Positions 7,608 to 20,205 of a DNA stretch of 64,000 nt are shown piece after piece. The notes beneath the pieces are model-generated. The model was given only the letters and a program-made list of their open reading frames with translations, was not told where the DNA came from and made no database searches. The position numbers were made by a program, and so were the translations under genes. Every line of letters begins with the position of its first letter. Position 1 is the stretch's first letter. The stretch lies in the NCBI RefSeq assembly GCF_002797315.1, contig NZ_KZ454936.1:3171645-3235644 (forward strand), written 5' to 3'. This DNA comes from Bacillus sp. FJAT-44742 (GTDB taxonomy: Bacteria > Bacillota > Bacilli > Bacillales > Marinococcaceae).

Positions 7608-9680
7608 CTAGCTTTCCACGATTTTTCTTGCAATTTGGTCTGCACCGTTAATTTGAACAAGCTTTTTCGTGCTTTCTCTCATTTGTTCATTAATCTCTGG
7701 GTCTAATGCACGGTCAATAGCCTCTTTGAAATCATCTTCACTCGGATCTCTTAATACGATCGCAGCTCCTGCGTCGCCTGCAATATTTGCTCTGGCCACC
7801 TGATCATCTGTTTTCGTATTCTCATTAGGCAGGAAGATAGACGGCACACCAAAGTACATAAGCTCATGGAACGTATTATACCCGGTAGCTGAAATAGCCA
7901 GGTCAAACGCTCCAAAATACATGGAGTTAGGATAATCCCTAATTGTCATGACTCTTTCCATATCTACAGCAATCCGTGTTCCAATAATAGATTCACCTAC
8001 GACTACATAGACATTTTCCCGGCTTGTCAATTCCCTCAGCAAAATAGAAATCGTGGAATTAATATCATTTATATTCCCGGCACCAAGCTGTACATAAACA
8101 AGCTTTGCATCTTCAGGAATATTCCACTTTTTCCGTACAATTTCTCTTCCGACAAGCTCTTCCTTATCCAAATAGATAACGGGTTCACTGTGGACCACTT
8201 TATCCTGTGTTTCCATGTTGCCGCTTGCTCCCGCTTCTCCTGGCACAAGAATTCGGTCAAAGTACTTTTCTTTCTCAGAAACAAGCTCAGCTGTGCCTTC
8301 CTTATGCTGACCTCGTTTTACCCAGTACTTTTTGATTCCTTCATCTTTTCTCATGGAGGATACTAAGCCGGCGTAGGGAAATGCCCCGTCAAACACAATC
8401 ATTTCTGGCTGATGCAGATCAATGACATCATTTAAATGATTGTGCAGCATTTGATTCCACTGCTTCGCAGTCATTTCTTTCGGGAAGAGCATCTTGGACG
8501 GCAAATGATATCCCAAAAAGCCTTCCTGAAGGATCAAGTGCATCGCCGAGCTTGTCGTGTGGAAAACGATCTCTTTATTGGGGTCCAGCTTCTTCACTCG
8601 TCTGGCAATGGCCAAGAGTCTCGTTAAGTGGCCAAGACCTGCTCCATTTGTTGGTACAAATACAATCGTCTCTTTTGTTTCGGAGATTGGCTGCACCTTT
8701 TCTTGCTTCTGCTGCTGGGAAGACGCATTTCGAGGAACGATCTCTCCGTTTTTTGTCTGCTTATAAATACGATACAACGTACGAGGCAAGCCAAGCATCT
8801 TCCTGGGAGATCGCATAGAATTAATAATGGCGTCGCCGATTCTGTACCTTGCTGATGCATTTTCTTTATGTACGGCAAGGACTTTATTAGATTTATCTAA
8901 TAAGTTCTTTAGTTTCTTTTGTTTTTGCTGTTCCTTTCCGATTTGGCGCTCAAGATGAGACACCATTCCTTCAAGTTCTTTCATTTGAAGACGATAGCTT
9001 ACCATCTTTTTCAACGTCTCGGCTTCAATAAAACGATCAACATTACTCTCAGATCCTTCAGCTTTATCTACATCCTGATATTTTTCTTTCACATGGGAAA
9101 GAATATCCTGAGTAACCCTTAGCCACTTGCCAGTCTCTGTTTCTTCAGGCTCTTCACTGACTTTTATGTATGGATTTACTTCGCTTGTGAAAAATACATA
9201 CTCATCTAGAATCTTTGTATCTATAATAGAAAGCTTCTGTTCCAAAGACAAATCTTTAAGTTCAGAGATTGTTGCCTCATCATCTTCTGTTAAGAAATCA
9301 TAGTAATAGACAAGCTTTGTCTGTTCCTTAAGAAAAGGAGAAATGAGAGTAAATAACCCGGCTAGGCTTTGTTGCCGGGTTATTTTGGAGTATACAATAA
9401 CATCAGTAAATGAGAGACTTTGATCGATTTCACTAAGGTCGTAGACGAATTGAACTTGTCCTTCGCTAATCGCCTGAACGGGAGGCTCTATTTCTTGATC
9501 TAGCAGGACAGTAGATGAGCAGCCCTTCTGTTCAAGCAAGGAAAGAAGATCAGGCAAAGGCTCTTGTGAGCCGATAATAAGCACTTGCTTGCCCGCTGCT
9601 TTATTTGCGGAATACTGGGTATATGTTCTCCAAAATTCCATTTCATTATAATAGTTGTTCAATTCATTATTCCCTGACAT
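7608..9680 (-). CDS. Large GT-B glycosyltransferase with N-terminal Rossmann-like and coiled-coil region
   Basis: 690 residues. The C-terminal half (from about 320) is a MurG-like GT-B enzyme: the glycine-rich NGAGLGHLTR opening contacts donor and acceptor, and the later SATGYNTFHELMYFGVPSI segment is typical of the UDP-sugar site. Residues 1-190 look like a small nucleotide-binding fold (KQVLIIGSQEPLPDLL) without recognisable catalytic residues, and 210-270 form a coiled coil rich in K, E and Q. That arrangement is unusual and may tether the enzyme to partners. It lies 15 bp downstream of the UDP-sugar dehydrogenase gene, so it may use the uronic-acid donor made there; this is inference. Confidence 0.75.
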   Translation of the reverse strand: MSGNNELNNYYNEMEFWRTYTQYSANKAAGKQVLIIGSQEPLPDLLSLLEQKGCSSTVLLDQEIEPPVQAISEGQVQFVYDLSEIDQSLSFTDVIVYSKITRQQSLAGLFTLISPFLKEQTKLVYYYDFLTEDDEATISELKDLSLEQKLSIIDTKILDEYVFFTSEVNPYIKVSEEPEETETGKWLRVTQDILSHVKEKYQDVDKAEGSESNVDRFIEAETLKKMVSYRLQMKELEGMVSHLERQIGKEQQKQKKLKNLLDKSNKVLAVHKENASARYRIGDAIINSMRSPRKMLGLPRTLYRIYKQTKNGEIVPRNASSQQQKQEKVQPISETKETIVFVPTNGAGLGHLTRLLAIARRVKKLDPNKEIVFHTTSSAMHLILQEGFLGYHLPSKMLFPKEMTAKQWNQMLHNHLNDVIDLHQPEMIVFDGAFPYAGLVSSMRKDEGIKKYWVKRGQHKEGTAELVSEKEKYFDRILVPGEAGASGNMETQDKVVHSEPVIYLDKEELVGREIVRKKWNIPEDAKLVYVQLGAGNINDINSTISILLRELTSRENVYVVVGESIIGTRIAVDMERVMTIRDYPNSMYFGAFDLAISATGYNTFHELMYFGVPSIFLPNENTKTDDQVARANIAGDAGAAIVLRDPSEDDFKEAIDRALDPEINEQMRESTKKLVQINGADQIARKIVES

Positions 9681-9694
9681 TGTTTAGACTCCTA

Positions 9695-11062
9695 TCATTT
9701 TGGGGTTAAGCCGAATTTCTGTTCCAGCAGTCTTACTTCTTCATCATGCTTAGAACCACCAAGCAATACAACATTGCTCCCAGTATTATACTTTTTCGTT
9801 ACATTACGTGTATCATAAACAATTTGGGCGTTATCAATCACCATTTGGTAATCAACGTCAGTATGATTTGTTGCAATCACCACGATATCAGAGTTTGAGA
9901 CGGTATTTTCGTCAAGAGAAACCGGCTCGAGTACCTCACCGCGGTTTTTGAACGATTTCACGTAAGGATCGTGGTAGGTCACATTTGCACCTTTATCTTC
10001 TAACAAACGGAAGAGCTCAACGGCTGGTGATTCTCTAAGATCATCTATATCCTTTTTATAAGCCAGCCCTACAATTAACACATTGGAGTTCTTGATTGGC
10101 TTCTCGTTTTCATTAAGGAGATCACTTACTTGCTGAAGCACGTATCTTGGCATATTTCCATTGACGTCGCTTGCCAGTTCAATAAAGCGGTTATAGAAGT
10201 TAAACATTTTCGCTTTCCAGGAAAGATACATTGGATCTAAAGGAATGCAGTGTCCGCCAATTCCAGGTCCCGGATAGAAAGGCATGTAACCAAATGGTTT
10301 CGTTGCTGCTGCGTCAATAACTTCCCATACATTAATATCCATACGGTCACACATCACTGTTAACTCGTTAACAAGACCGATATTTACACTTCTAAATGTG
10401 TTTTCTAGAAGCTTAACCATTTCAGCGACACTTGTGGAACTAACTGGAACAAGGTTCTCCAGGAAGGAATTGTATAGTCTTAAACCAATTTCCAGGCAGG
10501 TAGGTGTTACACCACCGATAACCTTTGGTGTATTTTTTGTATTAAATTGAGGGTTTCCTGGGTCTACACGCTCTGGAGAGAAGCATAAAAATACGTCTTC
10601 TCCGACCTTATAGTCAGTTTCTTCCTCAATGACGTTTTTAATGAGTTCTTCTGTCGTTCCCGGGTAGGTTGTGCTTTCAAGAATGACCACTGTATCCTTC
10701 GTCATATATTGAATGAGTTCTTGTACTACAGCATTAATAAAGGATACATCCGGGTCTTTTGTTTTGTTTAACGGTGTTGGTACACAAATGCTGATCGCAT
10801 CACAATGCTTGATATTTGAAAAATCTGTAGTTGGTACAAAGCTTCCATCAATGATGTCTTGTAATGTGCTGTCAGACACATCCATCACATATGAATTCCC
10901 GTCCTTCAGCTGGTTTACTTTTTCCTCAGAAACATCAAAACCATATACATTGAACCCTTGCTTGGCAACTTCAACTGCTAATGGAAGACCGACATAACCA
11001 AGGCCCACCACCCCGACAGTAGCGTTCTTATTTGAGATTTTTTCCATTAATGTATTAGACAT
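9695..11062 (-). CDS. UDP-N-acetylhexosamine 6-dehydrogenase (WbpA/UDP-GlcNAcA type)
   Basis: NAD-dependent oxidation of the C6 alcohol of a UDP-sugar to a uronic acid. The N-terminal Rossmann motif is VGLGYVGLPLA; the central helix carries the substrate-binding ENTFRSVNIGLVNE; the catalytic Cys is in GPGIGGHCIPLDP; the C-terminal UDP-binding domain has GLAYKKDIDDLRESPA. At 455 residues it has the usual length. The IPLDP form after the Cys fits WbpA-type UDP-GlcNAc or UDP-GalNAc dehydrogenases rather than the WecC form (IAVDP) of the neighbouring gene. The two dehydrogenases lie side by side, implying a polymer with two different N-acetyl uronic acids. Confidence 0.85.
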   Translation of the reverse strand: MSNTLMEKISNKNATVGVVGLGYVGLPLAVEVAKQGFNVYGFDVSEEKVNQLKDGNSYVMDVSDSTLQDIIDGSFVPTTDFSNIKHCDAISICVPTPLNKTKDPDVSFINAVVQELIQYMTKDTVVILESTTYPGTTEELIKNVIEEETDYKVGEDVFLCFSPERVDPGNPQFNTKNTPKVIGGVTPTCLEIGLRLYNSFLENLVPVSSTSVAEMVKLLENTFRSVNIGLVNELTVMCDRMDINVWEVIDAAATKPFGYMPFYPGPGIGGHCIPLDPMYLSWKAKMFNFYNRFIELASDVNGNMPRYVLQQVSDLLNENEKPIKNSNVLIVGLAYKKDIDDLRESPAVELFRLLEDKGANVTYHDPYVKSFKNRGEVLEPVSLDENTVSNSDIVVIATNHTDVDYQMVIDNAQIVYDTRNVTKKYNTGSNVVLLGGSKHDEEVRLLEQKFGLTPK

Positions 11063-15798: not shown

Positions 15799-16824
15799 AT
15801 GAAAAAATTTATGATTTCGACAGTATTTGCAACATGTTTAATGGTTGGTACCGTATCGGTTGCTGACGCAGCTTTAGGAGATCAAACACTACGTTCAGGC
15901 ATGAACCACAGTGACGTTCAAGAACTTCAACAAGCGTTGAAAGACGAAGGATACTTTGATTTCCATACCACGACAAACTACTTTGGACCAATTACTCGTC
16001 AAGCGGTTAGAGACTTCCAACGTTCTGCTGGTATCACAGTTGACGGCATTGCTGGACCACAAACGTTCGGAGCACTTGGAGTAAATGGAAGCAGCTCTTC
16101 TTCTTCAAGCTCCAGCAGCAGTTCTTCAAGCAGCTCTAATGTTTCTGCAAGCGATAGAATTGGTACAATCCAAAGCAACGGCACACTTCGCCGCGGTGCG
16201 GTAAACAGCTCTGTAGCTGCCCTTCAAATTGAATTGAAAGAGCGCGGACATTTCTCCGGTTCTACTGGTTCTACTTATGGCCCACGTACTGAACGTGCTG
16301 TAAGAAGCTTCCAACGTTCTGCTGGTATCGCAGCTGACGGAATTGCCGGACCACAAACGTTCCGTGCCCTAGGCGGATCTGGTTCTTCTTCCAACGCAAC
16401 CAGCTCTTCTAACAGCAGTTCTTCAAGCTCCAGCAGCTCTTCTTCACAAGTAGCTGGTGTATCTGCAAGCTATGAAAATGTAATCCGTACTGCTCAAGGT
16501 CTAACTGGTACTCGTTATGTATGGGGAGGAACTTCTCCAAGAACTGGTTTTGACTGCAGTGGTTTCCTGCAATATTCTTTTAACCAGCATGGTATATCTT
16601 TACCAAGAACGGTAGCTCAAATGTGGAATGCTACCACTCGCGTATCCAATCCACAACGTGGAGATCTAGTATTCTTTGAAACTCGTACTGGTCCTTCCCA
16701 CGCTGGTATCTATCTTGGAAATGGACAGTTCATCCACTCCGGTTCTTCTACTGGTGTAACAACTGCAAGCATGAACAGCTCTTACTGGGGACCAAGGTAC
16801 CTTGGCGCTGGCCGTGTAAACTAA
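15799..16824 (+). CDS. Secreted NlpC/P60 DL-endopeptidase with two peptidoglycan-binding domains
   Basis: Cuts the D-Glu to meso-DAP bond of stem peptides, allowing wall expansion. 341 residues: signal peptide ending near VADA-AL, PG_binding_1 domain (about 30-95), poly-Ser linker, a second PG_binding_1 domain (about 118-195), another Ser linker, then NlpC/P60. The full triad is present: Cys253 in FDCSGF, His301 in SHAGIYL and His313 in FIHSGSS. AGGGA precedes the ATG by about 10 bp. A WalR-like box and promoter lie 220-290 bp upstream. It faces an inactive paralogue at 17328-18806 across a repeat array. It may do the job of LytE or CwlO, but PG_binding_1 replaces LysM. Confidence 0.93.
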   Translation: MKKFMISTVFATCLMVGTVSVADAALGDQTLRSGMNHSDVQELQQALKDEGYFDFHTTTNYFGPITRQAVRDFQRSAGITVDGIAGPQTFGALGVNGSSSSSSSSSSSSSSSSNVSASDRIGTIQSNGTLRRGAVNSSVAALQIELKERGHFSGSTGSTYGPRTERAVRSFQRSAGIAADGIAGPQTFRALGGSGSSSNATSSSNSSSSSSSSSSSQVAGVSASYENVIRTAQGLTGTRYVWGGTSPRTGFDCSGFLQYSFNQHGISLPRTVAQMWNATTRVSNPQRGDLVFFETRTGPSHAGIYLGNGQFIHSGSSTGVTTASMNSSYWGPRYLGAGRVN

Positions 16825-17293: not shown

Positions 17294-17328
17294 TAAAAAG
17301 AAGCAGGCCATGATGGCCTGCTTCTTTT
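17294..17328. terminator. Bidirectional terminator between convergent cell-wall genes
   Basis: A perfect stem AAAAAGAAGCAGGCC / GGCCTGCTTCTTTTT with loop ATGAT. Its right arm runs into the stop codon of the minus-strand gene at 17328. Confidence 0.9.
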
Positions 17329-18806
17329 TAGAAATGATATCTTCTTGCTCCTATGTAACGCTCACTCCAATATATGGAGTCCAGGTCAGCTATTGTCACT
17401 CCGGTCGATGACCCAGCATAGGTAAACTGCCGGCCGCCTATGTAAATTCCCACTTGGGAAGGCCCGGGTCCATCCAGTTCAAAAAAGATGACATCTCCTA
17501 CTGTGGGATTCTCTATTACTTCTCCTTCTTCCCACATTCCTTCGATCGTTTCTGGCAATTCTGTTCCTTGTTCATAAAAAACGCACTGTACGAACCCTAC
17601 TCCATCAAACCCATTAGAGTCTTTTCCTCCCCTGGCATATGGGACACCAAGATAGTCGGAAGCTTTCGCAATTAAGTCTACCACTTTCAACCTTTTACTA
17701 GGAGGCGGAATAACGTTAGGTTCTTTCATTTGAACCTCTTCTTCACTTTCTCCTTTAAGAACCTTGTTTATTATTGATAAAGTCTTTTCCCCTGCTATAC
17801 CGTCTACGACCAATTCCTCGTGTTCACGCTGAAAAAGCTTTATTGCTTTTTCTGTTACTGAGCTGTATATGCCTGTAGGCTCCATTTTTATATATTCTAA
17901 CGTTTGCAGTGCTTTTTGCAGCTTGGAGACATCTTCCCCCTGAGAACCTACTTTTAATTCTTTTCCTATTTCATTTTCATCGGTTTCTGGAATTTCTTCT
18001 GCCTGGCTTTCTCCTATATCTTTCGGAGGCTCGTACGCTGCCAGCTTTTCATGAGTTTCTTCCCCAACAATGCCATCTGCTTCTATATCTACAGCATGTT
18101 GAAAATCCTTCACCGCTTTTTCAGTTCGATCTCCGTAGATACCTGTTACCGCGTAGGTATAAAATCCATATTCCTTGAGTGTGTTTTGCAGCCTTGATAC
18201 TCCGTTTCCCTTTACTCCTAGCTGCAAAAGTTCGGTATGAAAATTATGAACCGGTATATAATGAGATTCCTCTTCTATTGGCTCAGTCGCCGCTGAATCG
18301 CTTTCCACTTCTCCTCCATGGTCCGCCTGGTGGATGGCACGTAATAGCGCAAAGGTTTCAGGTCCGGCTACCCCATCAGGTGTAAGGCTTTGCTTTTTTT
18401 GAAAGCTCCTCACCGCTTCACTTGTGCTTCTGCCAAAACTTCCACTAATTTTACGCTTATAATAGCCGAGATCTTTTAGCTTCTGTTGAAGGGATTTTAC
18501 CATTTTCCCTTCAGAACCTGGTTCCAGCACAGAAAATGAACTAGCTGCCTGTGGCTGGACCTTTGGCTTAGTAGGCGGCAGAGGAGGATCTACGGGCTGT
18601 ACGCCATTTAACAAAGCATAGAAGGTTTCTGGACCTGCCATGCCATCAATACGCAGCCCGTGATCTCTCTGGTAGGCCTTAACCGCTTCTTCAGTATCCT
18701 GGTCATAATGACCTGTAGACTCATCGTATGTAAAATAGCCTTTTTCTTTTAAAATATCCTGCAGTTCTCTCACATCATCGCTTTCTAACCCTTTAGTTAA
18801 CAACAT
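17328..18806 (-). CDS. Catalytically dead NlpC/P60 paralogue with four peptidoglycan-binding domains and no signal peptide
   Basis: 492 residues. Four PG_binding_1 domains start near 6, 97, 197 and 287, joined by acidic or Pro-rich linkers, followed by an NlpC/P60 fold. Every catalytic residue is replaced: FDCSGF became FDGVGF (Gly402), SHAGIYL became SQVGIYI (Gln451) and FIHSGSS became FTYAGSS (Tyr463). The spacing (49 and 12) matches Cys253/His301/His313 of the active neighbour (48 and 12), so the alignment is secure. The frame is intact over 1.5 kb, which argues for a maintained binding role rather than decay. The start has GGAGG 8 bp upstream and begins MLLTKGLESDDVRELQ with no export signal. 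It could be cytoplasmic, perhaps mother-cell or spore-associated, or released by another route. Confidence 0.9.
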   Translation of the reverse strand: MLLTKGLESDDVRELQDILKEKGYFTYDESTGHYDQDTEEAVKAYQRDHGLRIDGMAGPETFYALLNGVQPVDPPLPPTKPKVQPQAASSFSVLEPGSEGKMVKSLQQKLKDLGYYKRKISGSFGRSTSEAVRSFQKKQSLTPDGVAGPETFALLRAIHQADHGGEVESDSAATEPIEEESHYIPVHNFHTELLQLGVKGNGVSRLQNTLKEYGFYTYAVTGIYGDRTEKAVKDFQHAVDIEADGIVGEETHEKLAAYEPPKDIGESQAEEIPETDENEIGKELKVGSQGEDVSKLQKALQTLEYIKMEPTGIYSSVTEKAIKLFQREHEELVVDGIAGEKTLSIINKVLKGESEEEVQMKEPNVIPPPSKRLKVVDLIAKASDYLGVPYARGGKDSNGFDGVGFVQCVFYEQGTELPETIEGMWEEGEVIENPTVGDVIFFELDGPGPSQVGIYIGGRQFTYAGSSTGVTIADLDSIYWSERYIGARRYHF

Positions 18807-18844
18807 CTTATGTCCTCCATTGCCTGTAGCTTTTTGAAAAATAA

Positions 18845-18868
18845 AAAACCAGACGACTACCTGGCTTT
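18845..18868 (-). terminator. Possible leader attenuator before the dead endopeptidase gene
   Basis: On the minus strand AGCCAG and CTGGTT form a short stem followed by T6ATTTTT, about 40 bp upstream of the start codon. A terminator in this position would end the transcript before the gene unless it is bypassed. Weak stem, low confidence. Confidence 0.35.
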
Positions 18869-18873
18869 AGAAA

Positions 18874-18887
18874 TAGTGTTAACACTA
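18874..18887. promoter_or_regulatory. 14-bp perfect palindrome upstream of the dead endopeptidase gene
   Basis: TAGTGTTAACACTA is a perfect palindrome about 68 bp before the start codon and next to the possible attenuator. It is a likely operator for a dimeric regulator; the regulator is not identifiable. Confidence 0.45.
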
Positions 18888-19030
18888 ATCACTGATGTAA
18901 AGATAAGAAGACACTTCTTATGCATTCTATGTGTCTCTATTATAGGGGAAAAAGTGGCAAGAGTGCTAGATTGAAAGGATAAAATAGGCATATAGCCCAG
19001 GTATCTTTCTTAGGGGTGCCTCTTCTTGCG

Positions 19031-19291
19031 GATGCCTGACACCAATGGCCGCTGTAATATGCCTTTCCCGTTGCTACGGCACTTTCACGGGAGTTTTGTT
19101 ACATCTTCAGGCGGGTGCCTGGCACCTCTGGCCGCTGTAATATACTTTTCCCTTGGTGCGGGGGATTCACATGAGTTTTGTTACATCCTCAGGCGGGTGC
19201 CTGGCACCTCTGGCCGCTGTAATATGCCTTTCCCTTTGCTACGGCACTTTCACGGGAGTTTTGTTACACTCCCGGGCGGGTGCCTGGCACC
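19031..19291. repeat. Palindrome array B: one degenerate and three exact copies
   Basis: GATGCCTGACACC at 19031 and exact palindromes at 19114, 19196 and 19279 (spacing 83, 82, 83). Units share GGCCGCTGTAATAT after each palindrome and TTTTGTTACA before the next. The internal stem differs from array A (GCCG/CGGC instead of CCCGCTG/CAGCGGG). The array ends 16 bp before the A-tract of the terminator at 19307. Confidence 0.93.
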
Positions 19292-19306
19292 TAACACGAA
19301 GACATA

Positions 19307-19334
19307 GAAAAAAGCCGGAAGCGGATTCCGGCTT
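19307..19334 (-). terminator. Terminator of the 84-residue gene
   Basis: On the minus strand AAGCCGGAA pairs with TTCCGGCTT, followed by a T6 tract. It overlaps the stop codon at 19333. Confidence 0.85.
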
Positions 19335-19587
19335 ATAGCATTCTGCCACGTTGGTGGTCTTTATTGATATCTTCATTGCGCATGCTTTGATAAATTTTAT
19401 CATAAACGGCCTTTGACTTAGCACGATCTTCTTTCGATGCCATTACACGTCGCTGATTTTGAGCAAGTATCTTTAAAAGATGTTTTTTATCTTCGTTTGT
19501 CAGTAGCATACGTAGCTGGTCTCCCCTTTGATTCAAAGGTAATAAGTGAGTTGCTATTATTCTAGCACATTCCTCTCTATCTATCAC
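19333..19587 (-). CDS. Small hypothetical protein, 84 residues
   Basis: I do not recognise this protein. It is soluble, mostly helical by composition and rich in charged residues (NEDKKHLLKILAQNQRR), without a membrane segment or Cys motif. It starts at a GTG with AAAGGT 6 bp upstream and ends inside a good terminator, so it is probably expressed. It stands alone between array B and the hypothetical gene at 19768. Confidence 0.6.
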   Translation of the reverse strand: MIDREECARIIATHLLPLNQRGDQLRMLLTNEDKKHLLKILAQNQRRVMASKEDRAKSKAVYDKIYQSMRNEDINKDHQRGRML

Positions 19588-19767
19588 TTTTTTACCTTTT
19601 TAGGCTGTAAGGTAAACATACAGAATAAAGTATATTTGCTCTTTTACCGCTGTTCACGTTACTTGTTCGTGAAACATACAACACAGTATATGTAGAAGCT
19701 CCCCAAACGTAACCGGCAGTGGCAGATTTACAGTTTTTCAGCATAGAAAAAAGGGGTCTGCTAATTC

Positions 19768-20205
19768 TTACAGGTAACCCATGTCGTGTAACCTCATCAT
19801 AGATTCCTTCCAATCTTCGGGGTGCAAGTATCCTTTACACAGAATTGCTTTTGGAAGATTAGCTTGTAAGAGCACGATAATATCCATGATAAAAGGAGTA
19901 AGGAGCTTACCTTTCTCGTTGCAAACTCCAAGTGCAATTAATGGAGAGTCACTTACGCGATACTTCATAAGGTTCCTATAAATAATGACTGTATCCGTGG
20001 AAAATGAGTGAAGCGTTTTTACAAATATTTTATCGGGAGACACCCAAACCTGTGTGTTGTCCGTATTGAAAAAAAGGTCATTCTTTCCCCTTGGTAAATC
20101 ATTTGTATAATTAAAAAGAAGATCATACATTTCTCCCCATATATCTTCATTGATGCTTTTACAATTGATGCTTACTTCAATAGAAGTTTCATAACGAGCG
20201 ACCAT
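19768..20205 (-). CDS. Hypothetical protein, 145 residues
   Basis: Not recognised. A mixed alpha/beta soluble protein with SIEVSINCKSINEDIWGE near the N-terminus and a C-terminal LLQANLPKAILCKGYLHPEDW stretch that may pack as a helix. GGGGGA lies 6 bp before the ATG, a strong ribosome site. No clear hairpin follows the stop. About 180 bp without a convincing gene separate it from the 84-residue gene downstream. Confidence 0.6.
   Translation of the reverse strand: MVARYETSIEVSINCKSINEDIWGEMYDLLFNYTNDLPRGKNDLFFNTDNTQVWVSPDKIFVKTLHSFSTDTVIIYRNLMKYRVSDSPLIALGVCNEKGKLLTPFIMDIIVLLQANLPKAILCKGYLHPEDWKESMMRLHDMGYL

Follow-up and report, generated by a model that had tools for sequence, protein, structure and literature searches.

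The stretch of DNA analysed here comprises 64,000 nucleotides (henceforth the window) and holds on its minus strand a gene for a predicted wall-binding protein, P0002 (Table 1). The frame of 492 codons is intact in the ORF reading of the window, and reading the same positions on the plus strand gives many stops; the coding strand is the minus strand. Upstream of the ATG the frame offers no alternative start and runs into a stop 20 codons back, and no signal peptide was found in the frame as read. In Pfam the protein matched PG_binding_1 four times (240.7 bits) and, at its C-terminus, NLPC_P60 once (67.2 bits, cut-off 23). A preliminary description of this DNA had given an unbroken 492-codon frame, four wall-binding domains, an NlpC/P60 domain with all three catalytic residues replaced, and no signal peptide; all of this was recovered, the replaced residues by comparison with 17 active orthologues. 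By fold and profile match P0002 belongs to NlpC/P60 (MEROPS C40), with Gly402 and Gln451 where the catalytic Cys and His would be and Tyr463 at the third, polar position of the triad, and judged from its sequence it is a homologue of the active C40 peptidases and not one of them.

Seven NlpC domains were found in the genome, and the DCS motif is present in six of them, all but P0002. The neighbouring P0001, with which P0002 had been compared in the preliminary description, does look active; however, it is a paralogue with its own counterpart elsewhere (61% identical, same convergent arrangement, L055), and the copy that other genera carry at this locus, active and secreted, is the informative comparator. 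The genome also encodes a CwlC-like amidase that lacks a signal peptide and whose three PG_binding_1 repeats are almost identical (contig 1, 2231798-2232424, L156). Two small proteins (window 19768-20205 and 19333-19587) are conserved beside the locus gene in related genera and matched nothing in Pfam or NCBIfam. The window also carries spoIIQ- and spoIID-like ORFs as sporulation genes, the former with an M23 domain.

Table 1 Features of the P0002 gene and its leader, the neighbouring P0001 gene and the non-catalytic copies in Geomicrobium (window positions unless a locus is named)
Feature	Position	Strand	Remark
P0002, non-catalytic NlpC/P60 protein, four PG_binding_1 domains, without signal peptide, 492 codons	17328..18806	-	
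PG_binding_1 domain 1	18612..18782	-	genome 3190256-3190426
PG_binding_1 domain 2	18342..18509	-	genome 3189986-3190153
PG_binding_1 domain 3	18042..18209	-	genome 3189686-3189853
PG_binding_1 domain 4	17772..17942	-	genome 3189416-3189586
NlpC/P60 domain without catalytic residues	17340..17648	-	genome 3188984-3189292
Gly402 codon	17601..17603	-	Cys in all active orthologues
Gln451 codon	17454..17456	-	His in all active orthologues
Tyr463 codon	17418..17420	-	His, sometimes Gln, in active orthologues
GGAGG ribosome-binding site	18814..18818	-	7 nt before P0002 ATG
Terminator-like stem and T-run	18845..18868	-	P0002 leader
Signal-peptide-like micro-ORF MHKKCLLIFTSVISVNTISKAR, then stop	18857..18925	-	out of frame
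14-nt perfect palindrome TAGTGTTAACACTA	18874..18887	.	P0002 leader
P0001, active, secreted neighbour; two PG_binding_1 domains and NlpC/P60 with Cys-His-His	15799..16824	+	sequence-based
Geomicrobium dead NlpC copy, L046	11245-12672	-	
Geomicrobium dead NlpC copy, L047	7201-8628	+	
Geomicrobium dead NlpC copy, L048	6661-7737	+	

Leader and flanking DNA

The leader of the P0002 gene as a whole showed a folding z of -1.02, and comparison with known RNAs and riboswitches yielded no Rfam match at the gathering score, only chance matches below the threshold. Promoters of the sporulation factors sigma E, K, F and G did not stand out before P0002 (p = 0.29-0.93 vs shuffles), and nothing exceeding the shuffles was obtained for sigma A, B, D, H and W. 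The micro-ORF in the leader was equalled in signal-likeness by 5 of 1000 shuffles, by criteria set after it had been seen; it is not similar to the signal peptides of the orthologues, whose profile does not detect it, and may be a relic of the lost signal peptide or a product of chance. The palindrome TAGTGTTAACACTA recurs exactly only once elsewhere in the genome, at 94082-94095 of contig 2, and was rejected as an operator, as this sole other copy shows no evident shared regulon.

Arrays of an 83-nt repeat lie on both sides of the P0002 gene (16929-17274 and 19028-19292), and the gene may have been relocated through these repeats without its signal peptide. A plasmid origin was considered and dropped, no close plasmid relative having been found. 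The palindrome of these two flanking arrays, GGTGCCTGGCACC, also occurs elsewhere, with 48 matches in the window at up to one mismatch (0.03 expected) and 131 exact copies genome-wide, often in arrays with a spacing of 81-95 nt.

Locus counterparts and the pattern of loss

P0002 alone as query returned no matches from genome contigs, while an alignment query returned 80 homologues. Full-length counterparts (37-42% identical) were found in about 17 other genomes of haloalkaliphilic Bacillales, among them Alteribacillus, Salibacterium, Salsuginibacillus, Aliibacillus and Geomicrobium, in a shared neighbourhood of fabZ, flhP, flhO, mbl, orf145 and orf84, in places with EAL and PAS-GGDEF proteins. 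P0002 was taken as an orthologue at this locus on account of the same neighbourhood and the full-length similarity, with the gene order changed locally: orf145-orf84-P0002 in the window (17328-20205) and P0002-orf145-orf84 in the related genomes. The gene has thus moved past its two small neighbours.

Except for second copies, every locus counterpart keeps Cys and His and carries a signal peptide of the MKKVVVTSTAVTGAVLAAPLAADA type, which P0002 lacks. In the alignment with the 17 active orthologues, Cys corresponds to Gly402, the first His to Gln451 and the third triad position to Tyr463, with the spacing kept. A signal peptide was recognised by eye in nearly all of the 80 named homologues (one match is truncated at the end of its contig, and another is ambiguous). 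Cys and the first His are kept in 117/120 NlpC domains from about 90 related loci; measured against these domains, the catalytic loss in P0002 is beyond chance expectation. In another NlpC/P60 homologue, of two Evansella species, Cys is replaced by Ser (GMDSSGF) and both His are kept (L141 and L148, each 8899-9891). Since the locus counterparts keep Cys-His and signal peptides, the losses of catalysis and secretion are derived in the lineage of P0002 itself. Orthologues sharing the Gly/Gln/Tyr set, for which the preliminary description had proposed to search, were not found, and intact orthologues, which it had counted as evidence against its proposal, do exist; these do not make P0002 active and, at the sequence level, show that its loss is a derived one.

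A second case of loss was observed in three Geomicrobium genomes, where a second copy with the locus and architecture of P0002 lies between fabZ and the active copy and has Cys replaced by Ala and His by Tyr. Unlike P0002, this dead copy retains the third His and the signal peptide and adjoins an active copy. It clusters with the Geomicrobium active copies (91-94% support in trees of the binding domains and of the full length) and, by these trees, is a duplication and loss independent of P0002. Of the three copies only one is intact; another is interrupted by an in-frame stop and the remaining one by a frame break, the last possibly an assembly error because the active copy in that genome is broken too. 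The dead domain is under purifying selection, with a dN/dS of 0.08-0.13 (bootstrap 0.06-0.23, one pair) vs 0.02 for the whole active gene; because all three copies share the substitutions, this value describes evolution after the loss.

At positions invariant in the 17 active orthologues, P0002 keeps 45/48 residues in the binding region and 28/35 in the NlpC domain. The NlpC losses are W392R, C402G, S403V, R419E, V431I (conservative), T444L and H451Q, in addition to H463Y, where the active orthologues themselves vary; most of them fall in the conserved motifs that surround the catalytic Cys and His, and from these motifs they are inferred to line the active site. AlphaFold, run on the window protein with 35 homologues, modelled most of the NlpC domain with a pLDDT of about 93-97, and its best PDB match by Foldseek was LytE (8i2d; 42% identity, TM 0.94 by target length, rmsd 1.2), so that the domain is predicted still to fold.

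Evolutionary rates were calibrated with the four housekeeping genes fabZ, flhP, flhO and mbl. Against this expectation the P0002 branch is about 2.3-fold longer in the binding part, overturning the ordinary rate that midpoint-rooted trees had suggested for it, and about 4.4-fold longer in the NlpC domain; partial relaxation alone could account for both values. In neutral simulations the NlpC frame stayed open after 60-80 amino-acid changes with P = 0.0185-0.0075 (NlpC alone, no indels), and the frame of the whole gene in 0/600 runs. These simulations presuppose that the 60-80 NlpC changes were neutral, and they argue against free decay. Selection on P0002 would accordingly be described as mixed from its sequence, combining relaxation centred on the catalytic domain with an open frame and conserved fold residues.

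Possible roles of P0002

Locus position and sequence show that the ancestor of P0002 was a secreted D,L-endopeptidase of the LytE-like C40 type with four binding domains, as it is still seen, active-looking and exported, in the related genera. In the lineage of P0002, the signal peptide and the catalytic residues were lost and the gene was relocated past its two small neighbours; what was retained is an open frame, together with the binding domains and the NlpC fold. Because these three were kept, the protein is probably still functional, and because it is unsecreted and non-catalytic, it is most likely an intracellular actor; without a signal peptide it would stay in the cytoplasm unless freed by lysis. 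There, precursors of peptidoglycan, recycled muropeptides or an enzyme of wall synthesis may be bound by the four wall-binding domains and possibly also by the emptied cleft of the NlpC domain, with P0002 acting as a regulator or scaffold in the mode of CwlM. S, T, N, Q and G together make up 28.9% of mature P0002; the active orthologues have 33-47% and the window's cytoplasmic proteins 21-29%, a resemblance to the latter that agrees weakly with a cytoplasmic location, weakly because the secreted dead Geomicrobium copy (33.3%) partly shares the low content. By analogy, P0002 is tentatively read as an intracellular, non-catalytic wall-binding protein functionally like CwlM, a reading to which we give somewhat less than an even chance. 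Among the roles considered, an intracellular binding or regulatory one is the most likely, with a mother-cell or spore role as its main rival.

CwlC is not known to carry a signal peptide. Since Bacillales have unsecreted sporulation hydrolases such as CwlC and this genome has its own CwlC-like, unsecreted amidase with three PG_binding_1 domains, the rival to be weighed most carefully is a sporulation protein that is made in the mother cell without a signal peptide and either becomes part of the spore integument or gets to the wall once the mother cell has lysed, there serving as a peptidoglycan-binding, non-catalytic layer or modulator. In B. thuringiensis, CwlC acts in mother-cell lysis under the control of sigma K and GerE (PMC9397120). 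The spoIIQ- and spoIID-like ORFs in the window fit with such a role, whereas the promoters of sigma E, K, F and G before P0002 do not rise above shuffles and the gene adjoins vegetative wall genes, so that we consider it rather unlikely. The spore-layer protein offered in the preliminary description is retained in this form, albeit with no sporulation-type promoter standing out.

Slow decay, in which secretion or catalysis was lost first, the remainder became dispensable and the present gene is a late stage before frame loss, is in our estimate unlikely. It would account for the loss of both functions and for the raised rates of the NlpC domain and the binding part, and two of the three Geomicrobium dead copies do show an in-frame stop or a frame break. 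Against it stand 1479 nt without a stop or indel despite many NlpC changes, losses centred on the catalytic motifs with fold and binding residues retained, a strong ribosome site before the gene, and the purifying selection on the Geomicrobium dead domain.

A protein that is exported non-classically or released by lysis and vies for wall sites with P0001 and other active endopeptidases would make use of the four conserved binding domains, and has parallels in RipD, a non-catalytic peptidoglycan binder (PMC12067865), and in the Geomicrobium dead copy, which kept its signal peptide beside an active copy. All active orthologues, however, carry a signal peptide, and its loss from P0002 makes such a competitor or decoy quite improbable. 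The competitor or scaffold in the wall proposed in the preliminary description requires export, unsupported by the sequence, and an intracellular role or release by mother-cell lysis therefore fits better. A misassembly hiding a true protein with a signal peptide is very improbable. It would be favoured by the signal-peptide-like, out-of-frame micro-ORF just upstream, but this is unlike the orthologues' signal peptides and lies about 54 nt from the start (vs about 12) with the terminator-like stem in between; the catalytic losses are separate substitutions beyond any single error, and the ATG has a good ribosome site before it.

Comparison with known systems

The proposed intracellular, CwlM-like role draws on CwlM of Mycobacterium, an unsecreted homologue of amidases that stays in the cytoplasm, carries PG-binding domains and activates MurA (PMC4946905). 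Both proteins are hydrolase homologues with PG-binding domains and no secretion signal; in CwlM the amidase activity is not essential, the active site is degenerate in some lineages, and the protein acts as a regulator. CwlM differs in its amidase domain (none was detected in P0002 by Pfam), its control through phosphorylation by PknB and its ancient presence in Actinobacteria, another phylum, whereas P0002 is a C40 protein of Bacillales with the loss confined to one lineage.

RipD (Rv1566c) has its NlpC/P60 catalytic residues replaced (Ala-Ser-Glu) and binds peptidoglycan without cutting it (PMC12067865); it has a C-terminal pentapeptide repeat and lacks the four PG_binding_1 domains of P0002, which for its part is without a signal peptide, and P0002 scored 21.4 bits against the RipD profile NF033743 (cut-off 215), so it is not RipD. 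Domains 1 and 3 of PgdS (YwtD) of B. subtilis are NlpC/P60 domains kept folded with the catalytic Cys replaced (PMC5880399), but share one polypeptide with an active domain, unlike P0002. The B. subtilis D,L-endopeptidases LytE, CwlS and LytF, closest to the NlpC domain of P0002 in solved fold and sequence, are active and secreted and carry LysM domains instead of PG_binding_1 domains. The profile TIGR02869 of SleB, a spore cortex-lytic enzyme, gave 200 bits summed over four stretches, below its cut-off of 236.5, with the best stretch in a PG_binding domain (residues 90-160).

Non-catalytic NlpC/P60 domains (RipD, PgdS) and a cytoplasmic hydrolase homologue (CwlM) are thus already known; both traits in one lineage-confined protein whose orthologues at this locus are active and secreted were not found in the literature searched. 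That a secreted wall endopeptidase came, in one Bacillales lineage, to work in the cytoplasm without catalysis, regulating or sensing how peptidoglycan is made or recycled, independently of CwlM, from a different enzyme family and with the active, secreted ancestor persisting at the locus in sister genera, is a possibility that we regard as doubtful. In CwlM the change is ancient and its steps are lost, whereas here they can be read in a series of active, secreted same-locus copies (sister genera), a secreted dead copy (Geomicrobium) and the unsecreted dead P0002. If the reading holds, this would be a natural series for how a wall enzyme turns into a binding or regulatory protein, and for whether secretion or catalysis goes first.
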